Assembly (NCBI GenBank): GCA_943736015.1
Contig: OX031063.1
Location: forward strand, 34,874,172 to 34,938,171
DNA from: Tridacna crocea
Taxonomy: Eukaryota > Mollusca > Bivalvia > Cardiida > Cardiidae
Reading direction: 5' to 3'
DNA length: 64,000 nt
Below are positions 22,001 to 54,169 of the stretch, piece after piece. The first letter of the stretch is position 1. Each line of letters begins with the position of its first letter. The notes under the pieces are model-generated. The model was given only the letters and a program-made list of their open reading frames with translations. It was not told the origin of the DNA and did not search any database. A program made the position numbers and the translations under genes.

Positions 22001-25000
22001 TCTAAGTATGTGCACTGTTTAACCCTCAGGCTGCTAATCGCGACTCTCCGACCTTTTGCGGACAGTGTAAATCAAACTCAAACTGCACAGTACGTGCAGT
22101 CCGTTCTTGGATCTACACTTTCCGATAAGGAGATATTTTTCCCTACAAAAGTAATTTTGAAATCCAACATTTGGGTTTTACGATCGACTGGAACGTTTGA
22201 TTTTAGTTATATAGCAGGTTAAAGGTCGCCCGTGAGGTTGGCTCAGTAATCGCTCAGTAATCGATATTCAGCTCAACACCAGCCTTGTTGAGCCGGCTCG
22301 ACATTTCAGCTCAACGGCCAGCTCAACAGCAAAATTACATATATATGTCAAAATCAAGGTCCGTTGAACCGGCTCGACATTCCAGCTCAACCGCCAGCCC
22401 AACAGTAAAAATACTTATACATGTTTCAATCAATGTTCGTTGAGCCAGCTCGACTTTCCGGCTTAACCACCAGCTCAACAGAAAAAAAAAAAACATAATA
22501 TCAAAATCAAAGTCCCTTAAGCCAGCTTGACATTCCACCTCAACCGGCAGCTCAACAAAAAAAAATATACATATGTTTCGATCGACGTCCGTTGAGCCAG
22601 CTCGACATTCCAACTCAACGGCCAGGTTAACAGCAAAAATACATATCTATGTCAAAATCAAAGTCCGCTGAGCCATCTCAACATTCCAACTCAACCGCCA
22701 GCTCAATAGTAAAAATTCGTATACATATGCTTCGATCAATGTCCGCTCGAAATTCCAGCTCAACGGCAAGCTCAACAGCAAAATACATATATAGTCCGTT
22801 GAGCCATCTCGACATCCCAACTCAACTGCCAGCTCAACAGTAAAAATACTTATACATGTGTTTCGATCAATGTCCGTTGAATCAGCTCGACATTCCAGCT
22901 CAACCGCCAGCTCAAAAGTAAAAATACTTATACAAATGCTTTGATCAATGTCCATTGGGCCAGCTCGACATTCCAGCTCAACGGCCATGTTAATAGCAAA
23001 AATACACATATATGTCAAAATCAAAGTCCGCTGAGCAATCTCAACATTCTAGCTCAACTGCCAGCTCAACAGTAAAAATCTTAATACATATGCTTCGGTC
23101 AATGTCCGCTCCAAATTCCAGGTCAACGACAAGCTCGACAGCGAAATACATATGTACATGTATGTCAAAATCAAAGTCTGTTGAGCCATCTCGACATCCC
23201 CGCTCAACCGCCAGCTCAAAAGTAAAAATACTTACGCGTATGTTTAGATAAATGTCCGTTGAGCCAGCTCGACATTACAGCTCAACAACCATCTCAACAG
23301 TAAAAATACTTATACATATGCTTTGATCAATGTCCATTGGGCCAGCTCGACATTCCAGCTCAACGGCCATGTTAACAGCAAAAATACACATATATGTCAA
23401 AATCAAAGTCCGCTGAGCAATCTCAACATTCCAGCTCAACTGCCAGCTCAACAGTAAAAATCTTAATACATATGCTTCGATCAATGTCCGCTCGAAATTC
23501 CATGTCAACGGCAAGCTCGACAGCGAAATACATATTTACATGTATGTCAAAATCAAAGTCTGTTGAGCCATCTCGACATTCCAGCTCAACCGCCAGCTCA
23601 ACAGTAAAAATACTTATGCGTATGTTTCGATCAATGTCCGTTGAGCCAGCTCGACATTACAGCTCAACAGCAAATATATATATATATGATTATGTCAAAA
23701 TCAAAGTCTGCTGAGCCAGCTCGACATTCCAGCTCAACGGCCAGCTTAATAGCAAAAATACATATACATGTCAAAATCGAAGTCCGTTGAGCCAGTTCGA
23801 CACTCTAGCTAAACAGCAAAAATACTAGGTCTATGTCCGTTGAGCCAGCTCGACATTCGAACTCAAATCGCCAGCTCAATAGTATAAATACTTATATGTT
23901 TCAATCAATGTCCGTTGAGCCAGCTCAACATCCTAGCTCAACCGCAAAAAATACTTCTATCTATGTTTTAATCAATATCCGTTGAGCCAACTCGACATTC
24001 CAGCTCAACCTCGAGCCCAACAGTAAAAATACTTATACATAGGTATCAATCAATGTCCGTTGAGCCTGCTTGACTAAACATTTAGCTGGCCGTTGAGCTG
24101 GAATGTCGAGCTGGCTCCACGGGCTTTGATTTTGACATATATATGTATTTTTGCTTTTGAGCTGGCTTTTAAGCTGGAATGTCGAGCTGGCTCAACGGAC
24201 ATTGATCGAAACATATGTATAAGTATCTTTACCGTTGAGCTGGCTGTTGAGCTGGAATGTCGAGCTGGCTCAACGGACATGGATCTAGTATTTCTGCTGT
24301 TGAGCCGGCCGTTGGACTGGAATGTCCGGCTGGCTCAACGGACTTTTATTTTGACATGTTTTTTTTTTTATTTTTGCTGTTGAGCTGGCAGTTGAGCTTG
24401 AAATTCGAGCTGGGTCTACGGACTTTGATTTTGACAGATATATGTATTTTCGCTGTTGAGATGGCGTTTGAGCTGGAATGACGAGCTGGCTAAGCAGACA
24501 TTGATCGAAACATATGTATAAACAGTTTAACTACTGAGCAGGCGATTGAGCCGGAATGTCGAGCTAGCTCAGTGGACAATGATATATGTATAATTATTTT
24601 TACTGTTGAGCTAGCAGGGATGAGCTGGTCGAGTGTCTCAACGGACAAGGATCTAGTATTTCTGCTGTTGAGCTGGTGGATGAGCTGCAATTTCCAGCTG
24701 CCTCAACAGACTTTGATTTTGACATATATATATATGTAATTTTGCTGTTGAGCTGGCTTTTGAGCTGGAATGTCGAGCTGGCTCAATGGACATTGATCGA
24801 AATATAAGTATTTTTACTGTTGAGCTGGCGGCCAAGCTGGAATGTCGAGCTGGCTCAACGGATTTTGACATACATATTGTGTTTTTGCTGTTGAGCTGGC
24901 CCTTGGGCTGGAATGTCGAGCTGGTTCAACGGACTTTGATTCAGCAACACCGAAAAAATCAAGAGCTCATCTATTGACTACTACTACTCACCACATACTT

Positions 25001-28000
25001 CCGGACGGATCGCTATTCCCAAAAGCACTAAAAGAACCGTCATTATGTTGATATGTCAACTCTTTTTGGTATCCTTGAATTAAAGAAAAAACATCACACT
25101 TTTTATTGATCACAAAGTCAAAGAACACTTGGTATTGTAAATTCTACGGCCTGTTATAGTTAGAGTATGTAAGTTCGAATATAAAAGCGATTTTGGGTCA
25201 AGGGAAGTCGAATGTCACTTAGAGTAAAAAATTGTTATTTGCAATGGGTACATACTCGTAAAATCATTTTGATATTAAGGTGAAAAAATGTAGCTTTCTC
25301 TCAATCGACAGAGTTTTTTTGTTTTTATTTTACATGTATTTGTAACCTTTCCTCGTAAACTCTGCTTTTTTTATGTCGAAAAAGAAGCTACTATAGCTGA
25401 GCATCTAGATATCGAATTAATAATAGTGGTCCAGCACATTATCCCCTTCCTGAACCCAGTTTATCCCTTCCAGCGTCAAAGAAGAAAAGTAGGCTATCTG
25501 ATCCTTAAACTGCTGAAAAGTTAAGCGAAAATGTCCACTCAATAACAAAAACCTAAATTTTGCAGTTCCATAATTTTTTTAAAAAAACAAATTACTGTAT
25601 CGGACACTGTAGGTCAAAGATCAGACTGCACATTTTGTGCAGTCTGATCTTTATCTACACTGGCCGCAAAAAGCGATCCAAGTTGCTCTTAGCAGCCTTA
25701 GGGCTAACACGTTACCCGTTTATTTGCACCTATATTAAGTTTCTTACAACCAGTAGCTGGATAAGATATGTTGAGTTTCATGATGATCTTTCAAGACCAA
25801 CTTTCACTTTGTTACAAAAGGTATACTATCTGCAAATCACTTAATTTTGAAAGTCTAAAGTCTACAGCTAAAGTTGAAAATACATGTACGCCTGCCGCAA
25901 ATTAACCACCAAGGTAAGTAATGACTGCGACAAAAGCTGATCTAAATAAAATAAAAGTTCGTAATGCAGATTTTCTAACCTTTAACCATGTAACCCTTGG
26001 ATTTCTGGAAGGTGGCATCGTCCAAGTTGTTGGTAATTTCGAGGTACTTCGTAATGAAGATGTTTGGTGCAAAGTTTAGCATGTTTTGTTCGCCGCATCC
26101 ATATGGCATCTTTAACAAACTGTCCAACCCATGTATACTAGGTCCCATCAAGTCCCCTGAAGTTTAAGGTATTTTTCTTTTTAATTATTAATCCGATCAC
26201 CCCGATAACTAATGAATTGCTCTGGAAATAGGGGCCTTGTTGCATTTGCAGCATGCATTGACATATCAATATGCGCAGTTCGGGCTGGCTGCCTTTGCTT
26301 TAAGCTTTCACCGAATTTTCTCCGTGCCCAAGGACAGTTCTTCATCTTAATTCATCCAACTGTTAGGCAATGAAAATATAACTATGTGTGACGACTTGCA
26401 TGGTATAACTCATTACCAAACGATCGAAAGCATTTGTAGACGACAAAACAAAAGTGACTGAAAATTTGAAATTTGTTTTGTGAAGGGTAGCAAACATTGT
26501 GGGAAAAAGGAGAAAATGCTGATTACCAGACAAAGACAATTTCGCAGACAAGGAATTCGTAAGTGACACAAGGTCTAGGTTCTTCGACATGGTAGCAAAC
26601 CTTGTAGGGAAAGGAGAGAATGCTGGCAACCAGCACTTTCACCTTTTCCCACGATGTTTTCAAAAGCCTCTCCAATCAAGAGTCAAAACTCTGGATTGTG
26701 TGGGAAAGGGTTAATCTATTTTTTTACAAAAACCATAGTGATACCTACCAATAACTGATACCGTCACCTGTTCGGAGCCACTCACGGTACTTGGTGGAAA
26801 AGATATTGGTACTGTGGTACTGTACTCTGACTGCTGGCTCAGATCTAATAACACAGGGAAGTTGTATTCTTTCGGGGTACCTTCGGGCTGAATAATGTTT
26901 AAAAAATGTATAAATAAGTACGTAAATAATTATTCAAAAAAAGATATAATAAAAAAGAAATAATCTTTTCCCATGACATAATTTTACGTGCACTCTTCGG
27001 TACGGAAGTCTGACTGTTTGTTATAATCTAGTTTCTTTTGATTTTTCACAATCAAAATCGCGGTGAGTTGTAACATGAATAATGAACAAAAACAATAGGA
27101 AACTATGGGAAAGTTTACTGCGGTTATGAAAATATCCCTCTTTATTCGCATAAAAAAGTAAGAAATCTGTGCTAACGGGCGTCACAGAAAACTACAAGAG
27201 ACCGTAAAATTTCTTAGAATAAATTGTCAATCTTTTACCTTGAAAACGCATGAAATATTCAGTTCTTGACTCAATATTGTTAGTATGCTAAGGTATGGCC
27301 AAAATAAACATAAAATCCTCATAATTTTTCCACTTGTCAGTATGTATTCTATGTATGAAATAGTATTATGTACTCCATTTATAAATCTGGATAGACCTAA
27401 GTTATAAACGGCGATTTTATAAATGGCAGTTAGATTGCTCTCAGTTTTATCGAGTGCAGTAAATACCTAAAAGGTGTTTGTTATGCTCAGATTAATCACT
27501 ACTAGTTGCATGACCCGCAAATTCGAACAAATGGCATTACTGGTTAACTATACAGTGTCTGTTCGCTTCAAGAAAAGTGAGTTATCTCACCTCTCTGAAA
27601 TGAAGCTGCAAACTTCAATGATTTAACTTCAAAATAGGTTGCTACTACAAGAACTAAAATAGAAGTTTGGTGCTGTCCTACCTCGACTATTAGCTGTTTC
27701 TTCATGGCATCTGCCGCAAATAAAGATTGGGCTTGGACATGTAGGTCTATCTTACCGATACGCCTTGGAATAATTGGGAAATAGACGGCTGTGGCAGAAT
27801 TAGGTTCTATCTGTGTAAAACATGACAAGAGAATGATCAGATGTAAGTACATGTTTGAGATGTTAATCATAATTCAATTGTTGCAAAAATCCTCCTTTCT
27901 TTTTGTTGTGCGAAAATATTTTTTTTTTTTAATTTTGCAGGGAAAAAATAGCACCCGCTAGAAACAAGCAATTGCTTTTTTTCTCACAATATTTTCCATT

Positions 28001-30782
28001 TAATTATGACATGATTCGTTTTTAAGTGTCACTGTGACCAATCTAAATTGATTTAACTCTTTACCACACGAGAAAATTTTAGACTGGTCCAAATTGAAAG
28101 CATTTGCAGACGACAAAATAAAGGTGACTGAAAAATAGAAATTTGTTCTGGGAAGGGTAGAAAACACTGAGGGAAAAGGAGAAAATGCTGGTTACCAGCA
28201 TTTTCTCCTTTTCCCACAGTGTTTTCAAAAGTCTTCTTTCTCATGGGTGTCAAAAGTAGGGATTGTGTGGTGATGGGTTAACCAAGCTAGTACAGTAATT
28301 TATTAAATCCTAAGTATTGCTTCAAGCCTGTACCACATAACACAATTTCAGACTTGTCAAATTAAAAAATCACCGATTTAAATATGGCTCCAATGATGTT
28401 TTTTTCCCTTATGTTTTCAAAAGTGTTCTTCTTTAGGGTCCTTAACCCTTTACTCCATAGATACTCATTTCTACGCATTGCTTGTAGGAGCCTTTGGAAA
28501 ACATTGTGGCAAAAGGTGAAATTACTCGTGACGGGCAATTTCACCTTTTGCCACAATGTTTTCTATGCTATGAAAAGGTGTCATATACACATAAGAAACA
28601 GCTTCATCCCAATTAGGGTCAATGACAGATACATGTTCCATAGAAATGCCTATGGGATAAAGGGTTAAGACTATCTGCAAAAGGGTCCAATAGCTGTTTA
28701 ATAGACAGTATACATCAACAATTGTTCTTATACATATGTTTCGATCAATGTCCGTTGAGCCAACTCGACATTCCAGCTCAACGGCCAGCTCAACAGCAAA
28801 TATATATATATATATATATATATGTGTGTCAAAATCAAAGTCCGTTGAGCCAGCTCGATATTCAAGCTCAACCACCAGCACAACAATAAAAATACTTATA
28901 CATATGTTTCGATCAATGTCTGTTGAGCCAGCTCGAAATTCCAGCTCAACGGCCAGCTTAACAGCAAAAATACATGTATATGTCAAAATCAAAGTCCGTA
29001 GAGCCAGCTCAACATCAAACTCAACTGCCAGCTAAACAGTATAAATACTTATACATATGTTCGATTAATGTCTAATGGGCCAGCTCGACATACCATCTCA
29101 ACAGCAAAAATACATATATACGTCAAAATTAAAGTCCGTTGAGCCAGTTCAACATTCCAGGTCATTCCAGCCAGCTTAACAGTAAAAATACATATATATG
29201 TGTTTCGATCAATGTCCGTTGAGCCTGTTCGACATTCCAGCTCAATCGCCAGCTCAACAGTCAAAATATTTATAATTATGTGTTGATCAATGTCGCTTGA
29301 GCCAGGTCGACATTCTACGTCAATGGTCAGCTCAACAGCAAAAATGCATATATATATATCAAAATCAAAGTCCGTTGAGCCATCTCGACATTCCAGCTCA
29401 ACCGCCAGCTCAACAGTAAAAATGCTTATACATATGTTTCGATCAATGTCCGTTTAGCCAGCTCGAAAATCCAGCTGAACGGCCTGCTAAACAGCAAAAA
29501 TACATATACATGTCGAAATCAAAGTCCGTTGAGCCAGCTCGACAATCCAGCTCAACTGACAATTCAACAGCAAAATTGCTTATACATATGTTTCGATCAA
29601 TGTCCGTTGAGCAAGCTCGACATTCCATCTCAACGGCCAGCTCAACATTAAATATACACACATATATTTATCAAAATCAAAGTCAGTTGGGCCAGCTCGA
29701 CATTCCAGCTCAACCGCCAGCTCAACAGTAAAAATACTTATACAAATGTTTCAATCAATGTCCGTTCAGCCAGCTCGACATTTTAGCTCAAAGGCCAGCT
29801 CAACAGAAAAACTACATATATATGTCAAAATCAAAGCCCGTTAAGCCAGTTTGACATTCGAGCTCAACCGCCAGGTGGACAGTAATTATACATAATTATA
29901 TTTATCAAAATCGAAGTCCATTGAGGCAGCTCGACATTCCAGCTCAACGGCCAGCTCAACAGCAAAAATACATATGTATGTCAAAATCAAAGTTCGTAGA
30001 GCCAGCTCCACATTCCAGCTCAACAGCAAAAATACTAGATCCATGTCCATTGAGCCAGCTCGACATATCAGCTAAAGCGCTAGCTCAACAGAAAAAATAC
30101 TTATACTTATGTTTCGATCAATTTCCGCTGAGCCAGCTCGACATTCCAGCTCAACCGCCGGCTCAACAGTAAAATACTTATAAATATGTTTCGATCAATG
30201 TCCGTTGAGCCAGCTCAACATTCAAGCTCAACAGCCGGCTCAACAGCAAAAATACATACATATGTCAAAATAAAAGCCCGTTGGTGGGCGAGCTGGAATG
30301 TTGAGCTGGCTCAACGGACTTTGATATATATATTGCTGTTGAGTTGGCGGGTGAGCTGGCGGTTGAGCTGCAATGTTGAGCTGGCTCAATGGACTTTGAT
30401 TTTGACATATATATGTATTTTTGCTGTTGAGCTGGCGGTTGAGCTGAAATGTCGAGCTGGCTCATCGGACTTTGATTTTGACAAATATATGTACTTTTGC
30501 TGTTGAACTGGCCTTTGAGCTGGAATGTCTAGCTGGCTCAACGGACATTGATCGAAACGTATGTATAAGTATTTTTACTGTTGAGCTGATGGTTGACCTA
30601 GAATGTCGAGCTTGCTCAACGGATTTTGATTTTGATATATACATATGTATTTTTGCAGTTGAGCTGGTGGTTGAGCTGGAATGTCGAGCTGGCTAAACGG
30701 ACTTTGATTTTGATATATATATGTATTTTGACTGCTGAGCTGGAGGTCGAGCTGGAATGTCAAGCTGGCTTAACGGACTTCG

Positions 30783-30840
<58 letters not shown>

Positions 30841-33800
30841 ATTTTTGCTGTTGAGCTGGCCTTTGAGCTGGAATGTCGAGCTGGATCAACGGACATTGAT
30901 CGAAACATATGTATAAGTATTTTTACTATTCAGCTGGCGGTCGAGCTGGAATGTCGAGCTGGCCCAACTGACTTTGATTTTGATATATGTATTTCTTGCT
31001 TTTGAGCTGGCCGTTGAGCTGGAATGTCGAGCTGGCGCAACGGACATGGATGTAGTGTTTTTGCTGTTGAGCTGGCCTTTGAGCTAGAATGTCAAGCTGG
31101 CTCAACGGACTTTGATTTTGACATGCATATGTATTTTTGCTGTTGAGCTGGCCATTTAGCTGGAATGTCGAACTGGCTCAACAAGGCTGGTTTTGACTTG
31201 AACGTCGATTACTGAGCGTTGAGCCAACTTCACGGACCCATTCATTTTAGCAATGTGTGTTATGGATCAGTGACACACATTTTTTCTTGCAACAATGAGG
31301 TAAAATGTTCCTTGGACCTGCAAACTATTCACTAATATGAAAAAAATGTTTCGACCTATGTCAGCCTGCGCAGATCTGGATCGATTTTTGTGTGCAAAGG
31401 CATGGTGTCAACTTTTCACAGAGCATGACTGTTTTACTCTTTACCTTAACAAATCTCGCGACGTCTGCGGGGTATGCGCTTGTCCACCATGATGTGATGT
31501 GTATATTATCGTAGTCTGGATTTGCCGACAACAGAACGTAAGCCTGAAATAACAAAAGGCTGTGATACAATCTTATCACATAACTTCCCTTGTTTTGACC
31601 CTTATCCTGCTCGATAACTGGAATGAAATTATAAATTCGTTCGTAAAAACCCAAATTTCGTTATTTCAAAGTGTTTTGGGGAATAATATCTCCTTAACGG
31701 ACAGTTTAGAGCCACGTTGCACGTTGTATTCAGTCTGATCTTGATCTACACTGTCCGAAGACGGTCATTTAGTTGAGATTAGCAGCCTAAGGTTTGAGTG
31801 TGATACAGCGAGTTTTTTCCCTTTGTCACACTCGTTTTATACAAGCAAATAGTGCCGTATTTGATCAACGATCTGTATTCATACGCCTACTTTCTGACCC
31901 ATTACTGACCCGGATTTCTCTGCGAAGTTAACTGTCAATATAAGTGATTGTGACAAAGTTTAATTTTTTTTTCATCTGAAGATTCTAGACAAAATCTTTA
32001 TGGCTTGCAACACGCGAAAAGGGGCATTCGGACATTTGCGTAAAGTGTCGTCCCGGATTAGCCTGCGCAGTCCGCGCAGGCTAATCCGAGACGGCACTTT
32101 ACGACTACATTAGATTTTGTGCTACAGTAGACTTGCACAAAACAGAAAAACTGCATAAAAACGAAAAGTGCCGTCTCGGATTAGCTTGCGCGGACTGCGC
32201 AGGCTGATCCGATACGACACTTTACGCAATTCTCCGAATGCCCCTTTTCGCGTGTTGCTGCCCTTATATGAAAGTTTCTTTGGAACGTTTTTTGTCCGTA
32301 ATGCGTCTGTAAAACAATGAATAGGCTTCATGTACATTATGAAGAATATACATAGGCGAGTGGGCGTGTGTATTAACACATCATGAAATACATTTTTTCA
32401 TACACAATTATGTGATAAAAAGAATCTTAAATGATTTTTTTAGGTAAAATTCAATAAACGTATTTAAAAAAATGTTATCAAGCTCGCCAAAGTCTTGCTT
32501 AGTAACATTTTTTCTAGACCCGTTTAGAATATTTTTCTATCTCAGATGTCAACAACTATGAGATTTTTATATCTACAACAAAGTATATTTGAAAATAATA
32601 AATCTAATAATTATCGTTAAATTATTATTAAAGTGAATGCTGTTTTCTTTTTCCTTTATATAATTTTAAATTTCATTAATTTACTTATTCACCAACTTAT
32701 CTATCTGTATATTTTGTGGAAATATTTTTACAAATTTGTATTCAAAATCTCCAGTCAACACCGTGCATTAAACCTTTTGTAAATATTCTGAAAATAAAAT
32801 GCGTACTTCAAAATTTAGAAAAATAATCTCCTGACTTAACCTTTATATGAAAATGCTGTAATAGTTTACTAGTAAATTAGTAAAAGTAAATTAATGTGCT
32901 CTCTTCACTCCCCCCCTTAACACACACACACATACAGAAGATGGACTTACGTAGATGGGCTGTTGAAAATAGTTGAATACGTTCGCTTGAACTATAACTT
33001 TTTCCCCTCTTACGACAGAGTAAGGCAGATGTAGACGAACGAAAAACGGCAAAAACGTCTTCAGCTGTAATATAATATAAATCAGAGCTATTACTGATGC
33101 AAAAACAGGCTCAGTTTTCTCCTTAAAATGATACATCGAATAATTTGAGAAAAATAGAGCATGAGAAACACAGTACTAAGAAACAGAAAATCTGATGATT
33201 TCGTGGATATAAAAAACGGGGTTTATCAGGCTTGCTCACAAATGCAGGGATATACCAAATATGATAGTACTGTTACAGAAAATTCCTACTGCGGTACAAA
33301 TAACAATAATAGATACATGTTTCTATGAGTCTTCAACAGCCAATTTTGAAGAGTATTTGCTTCTTTCCAATACCTCTAGCTGTTTTAATCATTCATTGAC
33401 ATCAGTTTCATTATAATTCAATCAGATATCAATTATTGCTTCCCTTTTGACATGTCTTCAATATTTTCGTCAGAAATGGAATTTATTGCTCTAAGAAACA
33501 TAAGTGCATTGCCTGTCATCAAATTATAGATATCAAAAGTCATCCAAGAAACCTCTGCGACCCTGACATGACTGCAAAGACTGACAAACAGTACAATAGT
33601 CAAACAAACATGTATAACTCACATTCGCAGAGTCAGACAGCCCAAGTCCAGATTTAGGATGAACTGCAAAAGCTGTAGCTACCCATGATGTAATGGTATC
33701 AGGCACCTTGTCTTCAAAAACGACTGTTCCATTCGTTCTAGATGGGTAATAAATAAGTGCAGAATTAAATGGAAGTCACATGTATGTGCTGGCTGAAATC

Positions 33801-36800
33801 ACAATAACTATTTACAGCAATATGATTAATTATTTTAAAATATGTTTACTTATATTTAGGACCGAACGGAAAAATGACGCGTAGAGGTAAAACACACAAT
33901 TTCCATTACAAGTAAAATGTATTTACGTTTATAAAATGTTATCGTAACTGAGCCAAAAGTCCATACAAGGAGACGAAGTACAAAATGTCATATGAGAATG
34001 GGAAGAGTCTGCTAGAATAGTAAAAAAATAACTGTGAGTAGAGTTCGGTCACCCTTTTTGAATGGACAATGATTCTAATTTAACATAAATAACTACTCTG
34101 GTGTCTAGAGAATTATAACGATATTAAAATTAGCCAATATTTTTAAAGCAAAGCCTAGTGGCAGAGAGAAAGTGAAATTATCAATATAAATAAATTCATT
34201 CAAAGACAGGTTAATAGCACATTAGACTTGATATAGATTGTGAAACATTTTTTTTTAAACTGAATTACAGTTGCCCGTGATCATTTTTACTGAATACATA
34301 AACGTAATTCACAACAATACATAATTCACTAAAAAGCTTTTTTTACCAAGATATAAACCTAGATCGCTACTTTATTGCAGGTTAATTAAACCCCATTTTC
34401 ACGAAGTATGTCTCATATATAACTGCATGAAACATTAATAATACAAGTTCAGTGCTCGATATATTTCTAGAACTATACCATAATTGCATGCAATACCAAA
34501 CACAAGTTACAAATTGTCTACAACCAAGTGAAAGCTACATGTATGTAATAGACTACCAACGTGCAGTTTATAAACCACCAATTTTTTTTTTGCTTCTTTT
34601 AAAAAATGATGCGAGTATAAGTTTAACAAACAAAGGTTACACCAATTACTGTGTATCTTTGATGATTGAAACATTTAAATGCATCTATACCTAAATGTCT
34701 TCTTTCTCTATCTATCTATTAGAAGGTTACTCGAAGCTGCTATGACCAGCGCACTTCAGTACATACTTTAGATTTCATGGTTGCTTCTTACAAATTTTGT
34801 GTATACAAACTGTATATGGATTGTAAAGTATAGTTAACATACGTTGTGGCTGATTTCCAGAGCCAGGTTTCTGGGAATAATTTTCTAACCCTTTGAACAG
34901 GTTTCAATTCACTTTTACGAGCAGTGGCACCACCTTTTTCACGAAAGGCCATTGCGGCTGGGGCGGAGAAAGACATCAATGCAACATCGTCCATAACCAT
35001 CCCGCCTCTCATCATTGGCATTGCAACAGGACCTCTCCAATCTGGCGTAGAGTAATTCAAAGAAAAGTCTGTCAAAATAGGGTTTTGTTCGGTTCAAGTT
35101 AATTATGTAACCATAAGTTTTTGCATTGATGTATTTGATTTAGAAAAGGTTTCTGTGCAAGATGTTACAATGAATATTTTTTTTTTTTATAAAACTCGAA
35201 AACTGCAAAGATGGATGGGAACGGAAAACACATTAACCCTTTCCCAAACGACAAATTTTGATCTCTTCCAAACCGAAAGAGTTTGCAGACGACGACTTTA
35301 GATTTTGAGAACTGGTTACGAGCAATTTCTCCTTTTCCCATAGCGTTTTCAAAAGACTTTTACTGCAGACACGTAAAAACCAGGGCTTGCTTGGGAAAGG
35401 GTTAATGTGTAGTCCTGATGATTTTTTTTCATAGATTGCGTTTGGAATCAATTTGAGGATTTCGTTCAAAATCCACGCTCTGCGCAGCATGACTTAAGTC
35501 AGGCTGCATGAAAAAATCCATATACAAGTTTGCCGCTTACGGTAGAAACGAAGTAAAGCCCGGTATATAAAGTAAGTAAAACTATGTCAAACATGCGCTA
35601 TGAAATACGTGGTTTAATGATTCGGCAAAAAGTATCAGCCCATGTCAGCCTGGGTCGAAACTTTTTGTTATTTATGTATTTTCTGCATGGCAATGAAATG
35701 GTCTTTATTATATACCTAGTAGTGAAATCCTGGAATTTCCCAGTGTAATAAATTTTGATATCATCACTAGTGACGTTATCAACTTTTAGTTCCTGACGTC
35801 ATTTGGGAACTACGTTTTTTTTTCGACTACATTTTTTCGACTTTCAAACGCAAAATTACAAATAATGATGTTGATAAGGTATATAATAAATAGAGGATAA
35901 TCAACTGGTTATTTTTGATATGAAAAATATCTCACTCGGACGCGTCGTAAGGCGTTAAAAAAGCTCGTGCTGCGCACTCGTTTTTTCAACGCCTAACAAC
36001 GCATCCTCGTGAGATATTTTTCATATCAAAAACAACCAGTTGATTATCCTCTATTTCTCCTGATTTAGTCTGTTGTAAGACAAATAGAATTCATTGATGT
36101 ACAATTACATGTCGAACTGCTTGATATAATACACCAGGGCCCGTATTCACCAACCATTCTCAAGAATGATCTTGGTCTTATTCTTCAAGATTTCCTGTTT
36201 GTGAAAGTAACAGAACTTTTGATTGGCTAAACCGGATGGTTTAGCCAATCAAAAGTTCTGTTACTTTCACAGTGACAAAATTCTGAAGAAAAAGACTAAG
36301 AATATTCTCAAGAATGGTTGGTGAATACAGACCCAGGGAGATTCCTTAAATCCCTTATGTCAAAACATAGCCCCTTTACAGGTTTCTTGTGCTTGCCAAT
36401 GTCAACATCCATTATCCCTGTCGCTTGTTGAAAATGTATTAAGGATAGAAAACGCGAGGTCGCTTTTAACAGCACTAGGACAAAATAGTTATAGGATAAA
36501 AAACTTATTTATGCAGGTTCTATAGAAATACATTTTGTTATGTCTCCGAGTAAACAAAAGGATTACAAAGACCGCTCCGTTTCATATCAAAGCAAAAAGA
36601 TCGGAACATATCAGAACAAAAAAGTACAGTTTTTTGTTTGGCAATGGGATGGAAATAAAAAATCAATATTAAGACAATATAAGTTTGTTTGCATGTTATC
36701 AAAGATTATATTTACTGCGAGTATGACTGTCAAATCTTAATTATTGTTATTATTATTATTATTATTTTGACAGATACTTAATTCATTCTAGATAGTCTGA

Positions 36801-39800
36801 AACCTAGCCAAACCAGTCTTACCACTTATGTCAAATACTCGAGTTAGTACTCCAACCATAAACACGTTGCACCAAGTCAAATGAAAGCGTGCACACTACT
36901 AATATTTGCAGATATACACTTGTATTTGGTACAGGCCATAACCTAGAGTACATGTAAATCTTAATATTACGTGGTATCCAAGGTTTTCCATAGCCAGGTT
37001 TCGGGAAAAAATGTTCGTATATGGCTTGGAGACTTCAGTTGAGATTTTCGTCGCCCCTTGTCAACCGCACCTTTGGTCTTTCTTACAGGACCTGACGCTG
37101 ATTCGAAAGCAGCTGTTTGAGACGCAAATAGACGTCTGCTGCGTCGTCGAACTTAAAAAACCAATATAACTTTGAATCGCTGGTCAAAGAATTATTTTTG
37201 AAAGAATAACTCTACTGACTTAATGTTATCGATTAGGCCTAAGAATCTTTCGTACAAAATACTGTTGTATAGGTAACTCGTATTGAAAGTGACCTGCATT
37301 CTTAAAATAATAGCTGATAGTTAAGCTGAAGCATCTTAACAAAGACAGTACTAAGACATACATATTAAAGGTAAAGAAAGATGGAACAATTATGTTGACA
37401 TAGAAGGTTGAAACATTGTCATTTAATATCGTGTTGCCTTACCTTTCCAAAATATAGCCACATTTAAAGCGAGATGTTAGCGATAACGATTTCACTTTAA
37501 AATACTGTATGTCATGAAATATTCGGAAAGTCAAACACGTGCGTCTGCAATGTACGTTCTTTGCAATCTTCATAAGATCACTATGGCTTACTATTTCAAT
37601 TGACGGATTAACTTTGCTATCCTGGTGTAGCCTAGATATTGTCGACACGATGTGACAATTGATATACCTTCATGCAATAACTCTCAAACAGTTTCGCAAG
37701 TTACTTGCCGGTTAGAAGAAGTCAAGTACAGTAATACTTACTTTCCCTGTGGTTGTATACAAGAGCATCTGTTAAATATGCAACTCCAGCGTTCTGCAAT
37801 TACAGAATGGTATATTTCATACAAAGTTTAAAACCTCAAAAACAACAGATACATATACATATTTTTCATAGTCGAGTACAGCGTGCATGTTTTCTTAAAT
37901 TGGCACAGTAAAACGCAACATATAATTATGACTTTTAGCAGATCAAAGTGGAGTTAGTGTGGAAAAATGAAACAGGTGTTGACATCAATGTAAATCTTAT
38001 CAATGTAATAAAGAAATTAGCTAGTACGTAATCGTAGATATTACAAACAAATTAAGCTGACAATTGTAAAATTACTGTTCTAAGAAGTTGCATTCGGTAA
38101 AATTCGTTTTTCACCATATCTTTTGTTTTTTCAAAAGAATAATACATGTAGCTTGTATGGAAAAAGGTTTCAAAGGAAATCTTTCCCCTTTTCCAACTAA
38201 AAATCCTATTTTCAAAATGCGACTCTTTTCAGAAATCATGCATTGAAGAGGTAAAGTGCTTTAGGAACTATCGTTCTGTTAAGTTTTATATAACATTATA
38301 CTAACATATATAGAGATTAACGTTTCATTTATGACCCTACTGTACCCACAGGAGCTTTCAGCTCCTTTATAATATGGTTTCGGTGAAGCAGTATACACAA
38401 GTATTAAAGACAGGAATACTGAAACAGTGAAAGACACAAACCTCGAACACATCCTCTGCGTCGACACCACCTGTCGGCATGGGCCATCTCCAGCAAAACC
38501 AATCACATAAAAACGGCGAGCCACCTCTACTGTCGAAAGACTGAAGTTCGGAGCGCACCTATAACATTTTAATGACATTGTACACGTTAGTATACGATGC
38601 TCAAATCAAGAGAATGCAGTTGTCATGAGACATGTAGACTGATTTTGCAAAAATATCAACCATTTTGATCCATATGAGACAAACTATCTACTTTTCACAA
38701 GAACTGCGGAATTCTTCTTACAAACAATTACATGTACAACAGCTAATTATGCTGAATATCAAAGGCACACGTAGATGGTTTACTTCATTTATAGCGCGTA
38801 TCGCACGTATCAGTTTTTTTTTGTACTAGTCGCAGCAATGAATTTTGTTTACTATCACTACTTTAATAACACACTGATGCAATGATGTTCATGAATTTCA
38901 TTAACAAAAAATAAATCCATTAAGAAAAGTTGTCATCAAAAACTTTTTTAAAAGTTTTGTTAAGTTGTAAAATCATAAAACCCCTTAATTCGGCAAATAA
39001 ACTTTCAAAGAGTTGATACTAAGAAAATTTTCTTCGAACCTTGTTGTGGCATGAAGCCTTTTGGAGAAAAAAATCAACAAATACCTGATCTTTTGTTATA
39101 TCATTGCCTGACTTTAGGAGAAGAACGCTTTTGTCAACGGCCAAAATATTGATTTTTGACCCTGGATCAGCTTTCACTGTTAGACTTATTTTCTTTGACG
39201 GCTCTGCCATGGATCTACTGAATTCTATGGATACCTGTGAATATTGGACGAGATCGATTATATATAGATAAGGCAATCGTTTCTTGTTCAACTTTACTTT
39301 TGCAACAATCTGTCATCAAAGGCAACTATAAATGTCGTATACACACGGAACTCTCAACTCGTTAAACTCTTCACAAATAGCAACTAGCATTGTCTCCTAT
39401 TCCTACAATATTGTCCAATCTTTCACGTACCTATTGTGTCATATGAAAATTGATAATTTTGCCTTTGGCAAATACTTTCAGTATAGATAAATTATAAACT
39501 GTGTCGCTGGCGGCACTGATCAAGGTAAAACTTCAGAGAACAGTCAGTCCTGTCCTGAGTCTATACCACCTGCTATTTTGTATGAACTATCTCACTTACA
39601 CAGGCCTTAAACTGCAATGCATAGATAGGTATTTTCTTCCTTGGTTAAATATCTAAAGGTATCTGCCTGTTAAACTATGTACATAAAATAATATGCACCA
39701 TGTTTTCATAACACTTATTCTTACAAATAAATCATACTTAATAATACGCAGTATCTACCTGGTTGTCGAAAATGTCATCTATATTGAAAGATAAACCGTC

Positions 39801-40265
39801 GGCCACCACTTCGCCATCTTGACGCACGTAATAAACCATGACTTTGGCCTTCGGCGCCATCTTTGACGTCACTGGAAAACGCAATACTCCAGTAGCCAAA
39901 TCAAATTGGCCTGATTCTACTACAAACCCTTTTGAAATCACCTGAAAAAACACTATACAATATATATGTAAGTATAATGCAGATACAATATATGAATAGT
40001 CCAGAACTCTTTAAAGTTTGAAAGAACACTTAAGATTGGAATCCACTGCTTGTTAAAAGGCAGACCCAGTTGTCCTTTGTGACTGAACTTTTCGATAACG
40101 TCATTGATGTCAAGTAAGAAGACTAACTGCACTATGTAGCTTACTGGGTTTGTTCTGTTAGTGTATTTGTTTGACTTGTTTAAATAATAAAGTGCGAAAT
40201 AGGTGAACCGAAAATACAACTGATGTCTATTTTTTACTAAATAGTGCTCTCTCTCTCCCTTCCCC

Positions 40266-40298
<33 letters not shown>

Positions 40299-43200
40299 AT
40301 TAAGAATACTCGTTTGACATTTCACTTCTGCTGTGACCAAAGAATAATTAAATTCTTATCGCATCTTACCTGGAACAAAGCCATTCCCGACTTCTCTGTC
40401 GATCGAACTTCAATTTCTGCCATACTGCCAGTCTAGAAACAATTTTAAAAATGGTATTCAACCGGTATGCAATAATTGAAATGTCATCTACATAAAATCA
40501 ATTCTACCATTTCCCCTTTTAATTCTAAGAAATCGGAGTTTCAACTGGACTGGCACTTTGACAATGTATCATTGAAAGTTTAAACATATTATATTGTGAG
40601 ACAACACGTTTTACCATTATTTGTAATCAAATAACGTGAACAGTGCACAAAAAATGGGATTTTTTTTCGTAATGATTTCAGGGAATTACAGTTACAAAGA
40701 ACCAGATAAAGCAAAATATACTTCATAACCATTGGAATATTAGGTCTTATGTTGAATATCTCGCAGACAATCTTAATACTATACCCCAAAAACCTAACTT
40801 TTCTCCCCATTTTAAGTTGAAAAACACTGAGTAGCACAGAGCGTACAATCTAATATTGGATTTACAACGTACAATATGTGAGATTTCTTCCTTTCTTCAG
40901 CAGTATAAAAATTAAGCCTTTTTATCACTCAACACCGTGCTCTATCGACCCTGAAAAAAGCTTTCTGAAAACACTGTGGAAGAAAAAGACAATGCTGGTA
41001 ACAAGCATTTTCTCCTTATTCCCAGAATATATTCTACCCCTTCTTTTCTCTGGTAAAGCGTTAACCAATATCAACATTTTTTGTCTGCAATATCAAATCA
41101 TTCAAAATTATTAAGCCTGTAAATTAAGTGCCAATACATTTGAAACGAAGAGACATTTTGAAACATGGTTCAATCATTATAGCGGATGGTGTACATCAAA
41201 GACCAGACTGTGCCCTCTGTCCAGACTGATCTTGACCTACACTGTCCGCAAAAGACATGCACCTTGTCCATGCCAAGAAAAGCGTTGAAATGCCTTGAAT
41301 ATCTACGAACAGAAAACAAAGATGAACATTTTATAGAAAGACCGAAATGTAAGCTTACCTTCGGTGTTTCTGTTAGTAACTTTAGTTGTATAAAATTGCT
41401 ACTTGGTGATTGGGCCTTGGATAGAGACATGTAAGCGCTGCTTTTCTTGAACTCCGCCTAAAAAAAAACAGTAGAAATTAAACACGTAAAAATGTATATT
41501 GAAATCAGAATGGAAAGTATCTGCAATGACTGTGATAACGACGATAATAATGAATATGGCAGTGATTACGATGACTGTATTAACAACGATAATAATGGAT
41601 ATGGTAATGATTTGCAATGACTGTGATAACGACGATAATAATGAATATGGTGATGATTACGTTCGTTCGTTCGTTCGTTATTGTTGTCATCCTATTTGCC
41701 ACCATCATTATTAGCGATCTAAATCTGATAAAACACCAGTTGGTGATTATAAACATTTGCAGATATGAAGCAGAAAAACACTATTGTTCAAACAAACCTA
41801 ATTTTTTGCCAATCTATTACATTGTTTCCGGTAAATATATAATATTTATTTTATGTTTTTCATGGAGATATAACGCAATTATTGCACACAAGTCACTCTT
41901 TTTTCGCAAATCCTGATCAAGGTATCCAAATTCACGTGTACCGGTGTTAATTATCTTACTAAAAAGACATAAGCGACAAATCGGCTGCTGACAATGTCAA
42001 GGCCATGTAAAGAGGGACTTTCTCAAGAGCATTTTGCATCTTTGGTCCACCCTATGTAATATGGGATGATGATTAAAGATTTAAAATGTTTTAAAGATTT
42101 AAAATGTTTTAAAAATTAGTGTCTCTTAGAAGAACTTTATTTTGTTTGCACATTCAAACTTCCCCTACAGTCGAAAAGAAACTTCTCGCTGTAATGAAAT
42201 ATTGTAAAATGTTAATTGCTCATATATCTTTTAACCTGAAGATTTAAGCCAAATAAAGTATTTTGAATTGAATTGAAATGAGTATCATATATTCGGGAAT
42301 AGCTGCATCGTCACAACAATTATCATTATAATTATCTATAACAATGATAATACATCTTCAGCATCTTCCGATGCTTCTATAGTTTCATTGTATTTGTTAT
42401 CATAACGGTGTTAGTCATATTAAGGAACAACTCTGGTAATGTCGCTGCTGAGTTCGGCGATCTGTACACATTTTAGAATGATGACATGCTTCATCTTTGT
42501 ACAAAGCTTCTATAAAGATATGACACCACTTAATTCTGTTTGCTCTGATGTTTTTGAATTGTTCATATCAGCTTTTTGTAGATAATATCATGCTGTTCTG
42601 TTTCTAAACCACCTTTTAATTTCTCGTATGTGAATGATTTCACTGTGAATGGGTCAGAAACTGGTCGACATCAATTATGCACTGACGACAAAAGCAATGT
42701 TGCATAAGTAATATAGATAATCTTTGAAAGGTAGAAAACATGATGAGAAAAGGAGAAGTGCTGGCCACCAACATTTTTCCTTTTCCCACCATGTTTTTAA
42801 AAGTCATTTTCCATGGTTGACAAAATAGGATTATGAGATAAAGAGTTAAAGATAACTTACGTCTAAGGATACTCTCGTAATGTCTTCCGGTATGGCTATA
42901 GGTATCTCGATTAAACCATCAGGAGGAATGCTAAAGCTCATTGGAGGCTGCTTGATTTCCTCATCACGTGGCCACCACCATCCTGGTTCAATGATTCTGA
43001 TAGGTTTGATTGGCTTTTCAATGGTTATCAACTCACCTGTAAAAAAAAAAATAAAAAATCTTAATTATAAAAAACAAAAAGTATTTTTAATTCTTTATTG
43101 GCCAAAAGTGTGAAACTTGCTCTCTCTCTCGACGGCTGAAAATGGAATCTGCTGGAACTCAGTAAGATTTTTATTAGACAGGAATTTCTAAACAAGCAGA

Positions 43201-46200
43201 TTGTATAGACATGTTAACTAAATATTCTAAGGGACTGACGCAAATATGGCTAAATATAATTATATGAGTTATCCTCTGTGAAAAGGCGGTTTTGTGCATT
43301 TGCCAAAAAGTATCTACTCGAGTCAGCGCGCACAGTCTGGGTTGGCTGACCTATGTCGAAACATTTAAATTTTAGTAAATTTCCTGGATGTTCAAAGACC
43401 AGTCCACCTCAGGATTTAACCAGTTCTTAAAATAAATGTATTATGAGCTGTTTCGTATCCTCCACAGGAAGTGCATTAAAACATCTTTAGCCAAAGCATG
43501 GCTTACAAGATAACCCTTATTTACCATCAATCATAATCTGTTGAGGAGTGGTCGACGGTGTTGTTGTTGTTGTGGTTGTTGTTCTGATCTCTGGTTTGTA
43601 GAATGAAACCTTTACTGTGACCTCTCCGGATGGAATGTAGGCAGGAGTGTCGTCTTGTTCTGCAACTTTCAGCTTTAAAAGTAAAACAGTAAAGCTTAAC
43701 CATATTTATTTTATATTGACTGAAAAATAAGTTTTTACAATTTATACTAATTTCCCTCCACTCTCTAGCTTAAACGTAATTTAATTGTTTTTTCGGCTTA
43801 CCTTTCCCACTTGACTTTTGACTTACTGCTCCATAATAGTCTTCACTAAATAAATCATAACTTGTAGTTGGGTTAAAAATGTGGACAAGTTTATATTTTG
43901 TAGTTCTCAGACGGCCTTTGCTGAAATACCCTATAACCCCCTTACTGTACAGTCTACGTGTAATTCAAAACCATACCATTTTTAGCAGAAACTGCCCCCT
44001 TTTTAAACGAGTGAGCTGCATTGATAATTTAACTTTAACAGTTATCCATTTGAAAATTTCAGTCGTCAAAAATAAACAAATACAAAACGAGATAAAAGAT
44101 ACAATTTGCTGGCGTGTTCAAAGTTTCCCTTCATTTGAAAGACAGCAGAGTTTCAATATTCATATCCCAGCACCTTTTACGCGGCTTACGCCCTCTATTT
44201 TATTTAATATACATGTGTACATGTATATCTTGTTTCAACGATTACTATACATCAAATTAATGATGAATAATAAATACAATATACAGATGAATCGCGGTAC
44301 AATTAAAGTAGACAGGGTTTGGGAGATAAGTGGTGGTATTGGCCCCCAGAACAAGAAATCAGAGGCAGAAAGCACTGGTTTCCTTATAATTCAAAGTTGA
44401 GATTTCCAACTTGTTTAGCAGTACTTGAGGCACATCACTGCGAAAGAATATTCATCCATATTTTTGTTTCGATCTTGGACTTAATAATTGTCATATCGGG
44501 GATGAAAGCTCAAAACTGTCTGTAAGTTGACAATATAATTTGTAATCTAATAAATGTTAAGTAATTGTTCTTGACAGTATGAAAACCCACTTACCACAGC
44601 AGTATAAGCCATGCCGGGTTTAAAGTTTCTTGGCAAAGAATCTGGAAATTCCAGCTTTATTGGATTTTCAAAGAATTGCAACTCTTCACTGGCCGACATC
44701 TTTGCTCCTGTTAGGGTTTCTGTCACATTGGCTTCAAAAATCAGGAAAGATCTGTCAAGATACTTCTGGACTTTGCGTAGCCGATCCATGGAAACAGTGA
44801 ACGACTCCGTTCCGTCAATCTATAGGATAACAGAATTATAGGAATATCAATTAACACGAGTCATTCTCTGTGAAAAGGGGGTATATTGTATCTGCAAAAC
44901 ACATCGACCATGTAAGCCTGGTAAATTTTCTGTATGTGAAAGGAGCTATCTTCCTACAGATTTAGTAGGTTGTTAGATATGGCTTGCAACACACGAAAAG
45001 GGACATTCGGACATCTGCGTAAAGTGTCGTCTCGGATCAGCCTGCGCAGTCCGCGCAGGCTAATCCGAGACGGCACTTTACGACTACATTAGATTTTGTG
45101 CTACAGTAGACATGCGCAAAACAGAAAATGGCATTAAAACGGAAAGTGCCGTCTCGGATTAGCCTGCACGGACTGCGCAGGCTGATCCGAGACGACACTT
45201 TACGCAGATGTCCGAATGTCCCTTTTCGTGTGTTGCAAGCCAAATTTATTATAGAGATTTTATGGGTACATATTTCTGTGACAACTTGCCCAGTATAATT
45301 CATAACCGAGATGCATAAAAAAAGTTTTCCAATGCATTTATTGCTGATGTTAAAGGTTCTGAAAACTCTTTACCCTTTCTGTAAGGCGTTTCTACGGCTG
45401 GCTATTGACGTCAGTATTCTGAATCATAAAGAATCATAACTATTAGCCTAAGGTTAACTGAGCAAAGCTATCATGTCTTCCTGAATAACAAATAAGATAA
45501 TGATGGTATTAAGATATAAACATCTAGATGACAATATACCATTAAGATTATTTTTCAGATTGGCCAAGTCTTTTCATCAAGTATCATTATCTTATACATC
45601 ACACATTATTTTTCAGGGTAACACAAATTAAATCTATCATAAGAAATGCAGTACGTACCGGAAATTTCATTTCGACATCTTTGCTAACCTTGACACGTGT
45701 ACCATTCGTCCAGCTATAGTTAGGCCATTTGGCTCGGACTCTCATACTAACAACCCCCTTCACAGGCTTTCCGTAGGTGTATCTGAAATTTGAGTTCGGT
45801 AAAAATGCTTGTGGTCTATATTGTTGTAAGTATACCCACCATTGAGCGTCATAAATTGTACGGTCAGGTGGCAGGGGACTTTGAAACTTGTTCACGGCTG
45901 TGGCGAATCACGTCATCCCCATCTTCGCTATCCATGGTGACGATCACTAAGTAGATCCTATAGGATCCAAGAAGTGGTCATCAATTTGGCTAGCGAAGAT
46001 GTGTCATCCCAAGCCAGTTTCCAAGTCTCCTGCCACTAGACCGCCAAACGAATTTATTATGCTGCAAGGTTTTACTATTATAAAGAAAACAGCCGAGTCA
46101 AAAATCCGAAACAGAACACGTCCATCGAAGTATGCTGATGAAAAGGAACTTACTTTGCAGTCACTTTGCCGGTAAAATCTGTGTCCATTATACGACCAAA

Positions 46201-49200
46201 ACTTGGCAAGTCAAATGAAACTTCAAACTTTGGTAAAACTGAAACAAAAGTGTTAATCTAACTGATAAACCGACAAATGATGTCAGCCTGGGTCCATATT
46301 CACCAACCATTATAGTGAACATTATTTGTCTTCTACATCAGTAAGTAACACAACTCCTGATTGGCTAAACCATTCGGTTTAGCCAATCAGAAGTTGTGTT
46401 ACTTACAGATGTAGAAAGTCTTGGAGAATAACACTAAGAATATTCTCAAGAATGGTTGGTGAATACAGGCCCTGATGTCTTTTGCGACTGAGATATGCAC
46501 TGGCAAAAAGAGTACTTATGTATATCCGAGGTGCATTGTGCCAATCCATCCATCACATACGTATATGATTCACCATTAGTAGCGAAAACATGTTGGTCCA
46601 GGTCAGATACTGTTCGAAGATGCATAAAGTCCCTTTTTTCACCGAGTATGATTTCGTTCTTTCGTTGCATTGTAGCAATAAAATCTTTTTTAATACGTTA
46701 TCACTCCTGCGATTAATTTAACCCTTTCCCAAACAATCCCTGGTTTTTACGGGTCAGGAATAGAAGCCTTTTGAAAACATCGTGGGAAAAGGAGAAAATG
46801 CTGGTAACCAAAATTTTGGGAAAGGGTTAAACATGGACACAATCAGGATCGACGAGTGGGAAAAGGAGAAAATGCTGGTTACCACAATATTTTCTACCCT
46901 TCTGAAGAAAAGTCAAATTTATTGAGCCACACTGAAATTGTTGATTGCAATAGTGTTCAATTGGATGGGTCTAAAATTGTGTCATACGGTTAAGGGTTAC
47001 AACCGAGATTTACGTCTTTTCTCTTTTTTCAGATGTTTCTGGCAAAGATTCTCTAAATATTTCACCAACATTACACTAAATAGGAAACATGAATAAGAGT
47101 GTCTAGGGGAATTGTCTGTAGCTTTTGTTTTGGTGTAAAAGTTTATTAAGATCTTCAATAAAAGATGACATTATGAATGCATACCATATTCGTCTATTGT
47201 GATCAACTTTTCTACTTTCTCTTTCTGAAAGAAATAAAAAATAAAAGATATTTGCTATAATGTATAACAAAGATTGAACGGAAACTAGCTAAGCTACATT
47301 AAAATCTTTTCTCCTTGATTTTTAATGATTATTTTTCTCTTTTTTCCCCCAAATTATGATAATAAGAATGTTTACCATTCACAAATATATTTCGCTTTTT
47401 CTATAGCCATATTTTGTACTATGCAGTGGTACTTCATAAAATCATGACAAGTGTTCAACAGTTAATGTGAATTAACAGCAATTATGGCCAATGATGTACC
47501 TGTTCAACAAATACCATCTAAATTATGCATTAATGACACAGTGGTAGAGGGAACTGACAATGTGCTAAATTGAACTTAATAAACATTTCACAAATTTATC
47601 AAACATTGTAAACAGGGTTCCTCTGGATACAGAAACTTTTAAAAACTTAGAATTTCATCTGGATGATAAATTAGTAGGTAACAATTTTGACATAAAATTC
47701 ATAACAGCACTAGAGGTAAAACACATAATTGAAAATTTAGACCTTAAAAAGTCGTCAGGTTATGATAGTATCGGAGCAAAGATATTAAAATTATGTAAAG
47801 ACTTTATTTCAACAGCAATTTCGTGCATTTTCAATAACTATATTTCAAAGGGCATTTTTCCGACAAAATTCAAAATAGCACAGGTTACGCCTCTTTTCAA
47901 AAGCGGTGACAAAAGTGATCCAAACAATTATAGACCCATTTCAATTTTACCAACGTTATCAAAAATATTTGAGAGACATATAGCCAACCAGCTTAAACAT
48001 TTCTTAAAGAAAACTGATGTCCTATATTCACATCAATCTGGTTTTAGAGAAAACCACTCTTGCCAAACAGCTTTTATTCATTTGATAGATACATGGTTAA
48101 CAGACATTGATAAAGGAAATGTAATTGGATCTGTATTCCTTGATTTCAGAAAAGCTTTTCATCTCGTTGAGCATGGCATACTTCTACATAAGTTAAAATT
48201 GTACCATTTTTCGGATATTGCAAGCAAATTATTTGGGTCATATTTGAATAGCAGACTTCAGATGGTAAAAAATGGAACTTCGGTGTCTGACTTGAAACCC
48301 GTTTTATCAGGAGTTCCACAGGGCTCTATTATTGGACCTACTTTATTTTTATTGTATGTCAATGACTTGCCTTTAAATCTTTCTCCAAGCATGGACATGT
48401 ATGCTGATGATGCAACTCTGCATAATTCTAGCTCGTCTATAAGTCATATTAATATGATCTTACAAGATGATCTACTCAAAGTCGAGAAGTGGTGCCAACA
48501 TAATAATATGATTTTAAATCCTAATAAGACAACTTGTATGCTGATAGGAACCTAGAAAAGACTCGAACAGACGCATATTCTTAATTTAAAAGCACTTGGC
48601 AATAGAATAGAAAATGTAAATTCACAGAAACTTTTGGGAATATATATTGACAGTGCACTGTCCTGGAAGAATCATATAGACAAAACATTAGTGCAAAATT
48701 ATCTACAAAATGACATCTGCTAAAACGAATTAACTGCTTTCTGACTCCAGAAATGCGTCAAATCTTTTACAATTCATATATAACCCCATATTTTGACGGT
48801 GGGTGTATAACATGGAGTCACTGCAAATCTGCATTTATAAGAAGAATAACGAAAATTCAAAAAAGAGCTGCAAGGTTAATTCTAAACAAACCTAGGAGAT
48901 CCTGTTCAAAGGAAAATTTTGCCTCCTTAAATTGGCTAACTTTTAAAACTCGTTGCACATACTTTACTACTTTGATGGTTTATAAAACAGTAAATGGCCT
49001 AACACCTTCTTACATGTCAAGTCTTATAAATCTAAGTAACAATCAGTTTTATAAACTTAGATCAGAAACAAACCATGATATCTCCCATCAGCGCATTCCC
49101 AAAACAGAGTTTAAGAAAAAATCTTTTTCTATGCGCGGAATGACGTATTGGAATTCGATTCCACTGCATATCAAGTCAATTACTAACATCAAATCCTTCA

Positions 49201-53798: not shown

Positions 53799-54169
53799 CT
53801 GTAAAAGAAATTTAACATTTGATATTATCAGGGTAACATCAGTTTTTGTGCAGGGGTCCCAAATTGAGTTCCAGCTACGGAAAAATTGTGTTTGGACATT
53901 GCATTTTCTATTAAATCAGATGACTAAAATTTAGTCAGTTTTTTACTTATTATCATGCAGGCCGATATTAGATTAATCAAAATACAGCTCGGCAAACAAG
54001 AAACGATATCGAATTACTAGCGTTAACCAAGCCAACTTCTGTGTTTAAATTTACTAAACTGCTAAAATCCCAAGACAAAAACATTATTATAAAAACCGCG
54101 GTCTACGTCAAACATGCCATCGCAAAACAACTGGAAATATTATAATACATAGATCTTAAATGTTCACTC

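Follow-up and report, generated by a model that had tools for sequence, protein, structure and literature searches.

Why should a single gene for a thioester-containing protein (TEP), an invertebrate immune protein with kinship to complement, carry two exons for its bait, the part of the protein that proteases cut? The question is raised by a stretch of 64,000 nucleotides from the bivalve Tridacna crocea (assembly GCA_943736015.1, contig OX031063.1, positions 34,874,172 to 34,938,171 of the forward strand), which we call the window and within which positions are counted unless another locus is named. A TEP gene on its minus strand contains two candidate bait exons, here called A and B. All evidence discussed comes from the genomic sequence of this one species and from published work on other systems. 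We consider it likely that the product of the gene is a secreted TEP of the mollusc iTEP/CD109 type, and that duplication of the bait exon gave rise to two mutually exclusive cassettes, either of which can be spliced in between the same pair of exons. Each transcript would take one cassette, and both exons would be expressed, never joined to each other, and cut by different proteases.

The observation from which this reading starts is plain: two intact cassettes agree in their phases, and the reading frame is kept by inclusion of exactly one of them, taken whole. An earlier note on this DNA had reported two bait exons in a TEP gene, and its coordinates, AG/GT borders, lengths and phases are confirmed, as is the presence of FPETWLWK in both exons. 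Exon A is preceded by ...TTTTTTAAG and followed by GTAATA, exon B by ...TTTTGACAG and GTATGT. The neighbouring exons fit, 37793-37742 leaving in phase 1 and 33737-33623 entering in phase 2; with one base from the former, each cassette reads stop-free and leaves two bases for the latter. A search of the 64-kb window for FPETWLW with up to three mismatches returns three matches against 0.12 expected, one exact in A, one exact in B, and a third, with three mismatches, that overlaps the motif of B on the opposite strand. Neither the tail pattern nor the tail profile finds further bait exons in the window. Contrary to what had been claimed, the motif is not quite the end of either exon: A runs on with TLDT(T) and B with SAT(T). 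The coordinates are collected in Table 1.

Table 1. Exons of the Tridacna crocea TEP gene discussed in the text (positions within the window).
Feature	Position	Strand	Remarks
TEP gene model	12665..53818	minus	about 34 coding exons, one bait and a short last exon below 12665 among them
Bait exon A	36971..37151	minus	181 nt; enters in phase 1, leaves in phase 2; 59 residues between split codons (I)...(T)
Bait exon B	34843..35068	minus	226 nt; enters in phase 1, leaves in phase 2; 75 residues, then (T)
Exon upstream of the baits	37742..37793	minus	leaves in phase 1; 17 residues; the C8:45.47 Mb paralogue has NAGVTVMTDATVFHHFE
Exon downstream of the baits	33623..33737	minus	enters in phase 2; 38 residues
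Exon found by inspection	38442..38558	minus	39 residues; absent from the exon-chaining model; related exon in a C1 paralogue, locus L054
50-residue exon	39085..39234	minus	homologous exons in loci L006, L008 and L054
Thioester exon	25980..26156	minus	GCGEQNM; TED_complement 1.8e-97
C-terminal exon with cysteine stretch	12665..12771	minus	short last exon may start near 11447

Are the two exons related beyond the motif? They had been described as unrelated upstream of FPETWLWK, which proves too strong: the 15 preceding residues align without a gap, with a score that 4 of 100000 shuffles reach; for a block of 20 residues 38 of 100000 do so. Both block lengths were picked after the alignment had been seen. 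Within FPETWLWK itself 3 of 24 nucleotides differ, all of them synonymously (synonymous proportion pS 0.72, nonsynonymous pN 0), and of 50000 simulations under neutrality 146 keep all eight residues. Across 12 codons there are differences at 8 of 36 nucleotides, with as many residues kept in 1238 of 50000 simulations; across 23 codons there are 27 in 69 (pS 0.72, pN 0.30), a result matched in 3 of 50000. All of these simulations assume evenly spread changes and take no account of base bias. Each cassette can be split into a front of 33 residues in A and 49 in B, and a back of about 23 residues (...R--FPETWLWK); the fronts have diverged beyond recognition and the tail has been kept. Taken whole, A has 15 K/R in 60 residues, and B has 11 K/R in 75, together with 7 Met. 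The tail of A retains all 7 columns that are invariant in the other 9 bait tails of the genome (R, F, P, E, T, W and W). A shares 14 of 28 columns with B and also 14 with the second C8:45.48 exon, so that shared columns cannot resolve whether A arose from B or from the bait of another gene. Of the earlier interpretation, what stands is a TEP gene whose exons look like alternative baits with either/or use of the whole exons; the absence of any relation ahead of the motif does not.

What could the shared tail be for? In human A2M, as described in PMC9352918, the native shape is maintained by the last part of the bait, alpha'NT, which runs through a channel. R732 and F735 stand out there by their conservation; with changes to F735 or to residues 729-734 markedly more of the protein is collapsed, with R732A only slightly more. 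The R and F of the shared tail match R732 and F735 by position, and by joining these papers to our alignment we read the exon tail as a putative alpha'NT plug. The back of each cassette would hold this plug, threading the channel and holding the native fold, and the front would be the exposed, protease-cleavable bait, free to differ. Cutting of the bait would let the plug retract, and the resulting change of shape would expose the thioester, a course of events that has experimental support in human A2M (PMC9352918) and is taken over here. Because the plug would sit in the bait exon, with the exon border after it, each cassette would carry its own copy of the tail; and because the front would be free and the plug fixed, A and B would share the tail only. 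The choice between A and B would then alter which proteases trigger the same thioester effector. According to PMC8267569, A2M whose bait is wholly replaced by Gly/Ser repeats still works and is cut by none of the proteases tested, and substrate sequences added to this Gly/Ser bait restore cutting by chosen proteases. By analogy with this engineering it is plausible that bait choice sets protease choice, and from the composition of A and B we infer that their protease triggers differ.

The front of A allows a further suggestion. If A starts at 37151, RRRSRR stands at the head of the bait and conforms to the furin-type rule R-X-K/R-R; the A isoform might on this ground be cut in the secretory pathway, its plug freed and the protein open on release, with the B isoform waiting for a protease. 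Were that so, one gene would splice between a constitutive and a triggered thioester effector. Furin is described as cutting complement factors at the N-terminus of the ANA domain, which replaces the bait there (PMC9352918). In the A isoform no ANA domain follows RRRSRR, so that a cut there could free the plug. We hold furin activation to be quite unlikely.

Returning to the two putative protease-triggered cassettes, how much does the reading frame say for their exclusive use? Either exon alone keeps the frame, the lengths of 181 and 226 nt both being 1 mod 3. If A and B are joined whole, a stop follows within B, 96 nt ahead of the junction that comes next; if both are left out, the stop falls in the 33737 exon, 56 nt from its end. 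The earlier claim that inclusion or omission of both breaks the frame thus holds for the whole exons. These are either/or because their end phases are unequal, which makes any duplicate of such a bait exon either/or by construction; the frame argument is a consequence of exon layout rather than independent evidence. The stop inside B also invites a quite different explanation, namely that A is mainly a switch-off exon, joined to B so that the stop leads to mRNA decay and the dosage of the protein, not its bait, is tuned. By the usual 50-nt rule, a stop this far ahead of the junction with 33737 would trigger decay. Dosage tuning, however, gives no reason for A to have kept the residues of the plug together with phases that suit a productive bait exon, and we regard it as very improbable.

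The same claim does not extend to parts of the exons. Each has a second in-frame acceptor, at 37112 in A (39 nt further in) and at 35041 in B (27 nt further in), and the starts of A and B are therefore not fixed. A beginning at 37112 would lose its first 13 codons, RRRSRR included. A splice matrix built from this gene prefers 37151 (4.13) to 37112 (1.88), whereas a generic consensus matrix gives -2.15 for 37151 and 1.5 for 37112; the 13 codons between the two acceptors have a negative coding score (-3.8). The acceptors of B are close, 3.17 for 35068 and 2.26 for 35041, and we set the start to 35068 by hand where the exon-chaining model had 35041. Between 37112 and 37071 lies a piece of A of 42 nt, which is frame-neutral and could in principle precede B, so that the frame break on inclusion of both is valid for whole exons only. 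That this piece, with its 13 residues, is an optional insert lengthening the bait of B is the path taken by the exon-chaining model once weak sites are allowed. The model, however, is blind to homology beyond its codon training and relies on the generic matrix, and an insert of this kind would leave the conserved tail of A and its donor at 36971 unexplained; we find it barely credible.

Is exon A used at all? Exon B is clearly coding by its codon use, with a log-odds of 17.7 that none of 571 open intronic stretches of that length reach; both exons lie outside the codon training set. Several results weigh against a functional A and against exclusive choice. Over its 59 codons A has a codon log-odds of -0.1, reached by 106 of 1192 open intronic stretches, and an open frame of its length is not rare in itself (1192 of 25393 placements). 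Its donor is weak, only 2 of the 31 other donors of the gene scoring below it, and with B forbidden the exon-chaining model skipped the region and did not take A. The folding energy around the acceptor of B is no better than that of shuffles (z -0.52, with equally good folds in 55 of 200), for which reason we dropped RNA structure as a mechanism of either/or choice. That acceptor is bracketed by a 16-nt complementary pair (34969-34984 and 35121-35136); stems of this kind are rare in simulated sequence, any with 15 of 16 matched occurring in 4 of 300 first-order Markov simulations of the intron, although the observed count in that comparison also takes in pieces of the long hairpins and is not specific to this stem. 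Begun at 37112, A reaches a codon log-odds of 3.7, attained by 41 of 2440 open intronic stretches.

The missing codon bias, the weak donor and the choice of the exon-chaining model would all be accounted for if only B were used and A were the relic of a duplicated bait exon, no longer spliced in. The front of A is also without a significant match elsewhere in the genome, the sole match reaching into it having an E-value of 0.42. A relic, however, would not be expected to have kept all seven invariant tail residues, with only synonymous changes in FPETWLWK, while the front diverged beyond recognition. The frame and both splice sites of A are also intact. The weak codon signal in the front is itself expected, as bait sequences evolve fast. 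In A the distance from the last TGG of FPETWLW to the donor is 17 nt, the value of 10 of the 11 bait exons of the genome, B being the exception with 14. Held out and scored against a profile of the 9 other bait tails, A obtains 42.2 bits (independent E-value 5.9e-11 among 18864 reading frames), compared with 13.7 bits for the best stretch that is not a bait. In leave-one-out scoring it ranks 4th of 10, A having been scored with 9 training tails including B and the others with 8, and the second C1 tail, near-identical to the first, being omitted. Searched against the genome, exon A finds 8 matches at E <=10, of which the 6 at E <=0.5, itself included, are all bait exons. We judge a relic unlikely, and the reading as two alternative baits is retained.

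If one bait exon was duplicated here, has the same happened elsewhere in the genome? Across its 1.05 Gb there are 11 exact sites of FPETW[LIVMF]W and 147 sites with at most one mismatch; most of the one-mismatch sites among the matches listed are repeats with TTTCAAGAAAC or TGTCCAGAAAC. When the two exons that follow the bait are searched against the genome, at least 25 matches result, counts for large families being lower bounds in this search. Apart from one match at E 9.7, which was not used, they group into 13 loci (24 matches). The 11 motif sites lie in 8 of the 13 loci, and the other five are without the exact motif. Bait exon duplication looks recurrent in this genome, because 3 of the 8 motif-bearing TEP loci have two motif exons: the locus in the window, a pair on C8 (motifs at 45.477 and 45.479 Mb, with a single downstream exon at 45.481 Mb) and a pair on C11 (motifs at 27.889 and 27.911 Mb, with a single downstream exon at 27.878 Mb). 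The two sites on C1 (24.598 and 24.681 Mb) have a downstream exon each and belong to separate genes. All 11 exact-motif exons have a GT permitting exit in phase 2. The 9 sites outside the window all have an AG that would give entry in phase 1; several AGs qualify per site, and 7 to 14 of the 17 positions before likely acceptors are pyrimidines, so that the entry phase of the paralogues is not established. An impression that these acceptors are T-rich was not borne out by this count. The counterpart of the upstream exon in the C8:45.47 Mb paralogue can, judged by eye, also leave in phase 1.

The C8 and C11 loci probably hold two bait exons each. On C8 the paralogue (locus L006) has two Gly/Ala-rich bait exons, at 45476928 and 45479486 on the plus strand, of which the first is without a convincing acceptor and may be decaying. 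The C11 motifs, at 27888951 and 27910654 on the minus strand (loci L010/L033 and L022/L034), would make a probable two-bait TEP gene with exons 21.7 kb apart; both are acidic ahead of the tail, one with internal repeats (GLGGVAFMPSEDE, DEPQLKEDP), and quite unlike the basic exon A. Both would belong to one gene, whose upstream exons were not found in the stretch covered. Between the two motifs there are only matches at E 0.4 or worse, and the upstream-exon query finds no upstream exon there; one match at C11 (E 0.001) lies 3' of the downstream exon of that gene and presumably represents a transposase fragment.

To what kind of TEP does the gene belong? The gene model, which runs from 53.8 kb downwards, was obtained by simple exon-chaining trained on homologous reading frames and was then edited by hand: exons 33064-32951, 12771-12665 (C-terminal) and 38558-38442 and a short last exon near 11447 were added, and a 42-nt piece of exon A and one distant last exon were removed. 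Such a computational and partly manual model may be inaccurate for short exons and for the last one. Over the model, Pfam domains follow in the order MG2, MG3, MG4, bait-region domain (BRD), A2M, TED and receptor-binding, with E-values of 3.4e-15 for MG2, 2.5e-31 for BRD, 3.6e-26 for A2M, 1.8e-97 for TED_complement and 2.6e-24 for A2M_recep; MG3 (1e-4) and MG4 (1.1e-3) are weak, falling under their Pfam cut-offs. The features of the A2M superfamily are present, with a GCGEQ thioester in the TED and the macroglobulin, bait, A2M and receptor-binding domains in order. A stretch of 20 residues looks, by eye, like a signal peptide. Two threonine runs of 17 and 13 letters, in the exons 52869-52509 and 43672-43525, resemble short mucin linkers.

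Among solved structures, human CD109 (PDB 9fx2, 8s3o) is the best match to the C-terminal half (E 2.3e-116), followed by A2M-like 1, A2M and Anopheles TEP1. The histidine of GRVIHSELQGG in CD109 is a histidine at the matching place in the Tridacna protein as well; this residue helps complement-type thioesters to attack hydroxyl groups. The CD109 label suggested by the best PDB match was nevertheless rejected, since inspection by eye revealed no hydrophobic tail of the type that receives a glycosylphosphatidylinositol (GPI) anchor at either candidate C-terminus, including ...NNRGPKIV. The cysteine stretch at the C-terminus, an iTEP feature in the sense applied to BgTEP1-4 in PMC7016707, is encoded by exon 12771-12665, although it is uncertain where exactly the protein ends. 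Given this stretch and the missing hydrophobic tail, the iTEP label appears to fit the gene better than CD109.

The introns of the gene hold repeats of their own. The one between A and B contains a pair of long hairpins, at 36134-36337 and 35888-36056, with arms of 100 nt and 83 nt that are 84% and 88% complementary; they are probably short mobile-element copies, and one of them resembles, by eye, a stretch near 10560-10380. Two further intronic regions (22287-24941 and 28734-31182) contain large arrays of a unit of about 76-78 nt (GTTGAGCCAGCTCGACATTCCAGCTCAAC...), which occurs in both orientations within each region, so that each looks like a big imperfect inverted repeat.

Alternative bait exons are already known from scallop, snail, flies and shrimp, and the Tridacna gene adds another case, a clean one with two cassettes, to the few TEP genes known to use splicing for variation of the protease sensor. 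It also suggests a simple reason for the exon layout: with plug and bait in one exon, duplicates would keep the tail and leave the front free. The earlier note was right to compare the pair with Drosophila Tep2 and a scallop TEP, and a closer precedent, which it did not name, is BgTEP2 of the snail Biomphalaria glabrata. There transcripts show that the variable region is encoded by 12 mutually exclusive exons, spread over 30 kb, whose C-terminal part contains extremely conserved residues (PMC7016707). The same source reports that BgCD109 and BgA2M also vary in the bait region and that BgTEP genes have 35-43 exons. The Tridacna gene is like BgTEP2 in its tandem same-phase bait exons, the conserved C-terminal part of these exons, the C-terminal cysteine stretch and, with about 34 coding exons, its build; unlike BgTEP2, it has two such exons within 2.3 kb, known from sequence alone.

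The other systems differ in similar ways. CfTEP of the scallop Chlamys farreri, as told in PMC7016707, forms seven isoforms from six mutually exclusive exons, some of them challenge-induced, and thus has more alternative exons than the Tridacna gene and demonstrated expression. In Drosophila Tep2, splicing of exon 5 variants in the hypervariable region yields five isoforms (PMC5489563, PMC7016707); Tep2 thus has five alternatives, and the insect TEP genes cited in PMC7016707 have 11-15 exons, compared with about 34 in Tridacna. Six variants are given for shrimp A2M (PMC7016707). Among the human relatives, A2M has the R and F before PETW that match the shared tail, whereas its single bait has been changed by engineering and not by splicing. 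CD109, with VRKHFPETWIW, has a tail that resembles that of A and B, and is GPI-anchored, whereas the candidate C-termini of the Tridacna protein follow a cysteine stretch and, by eye, have no hydrophobic tail.

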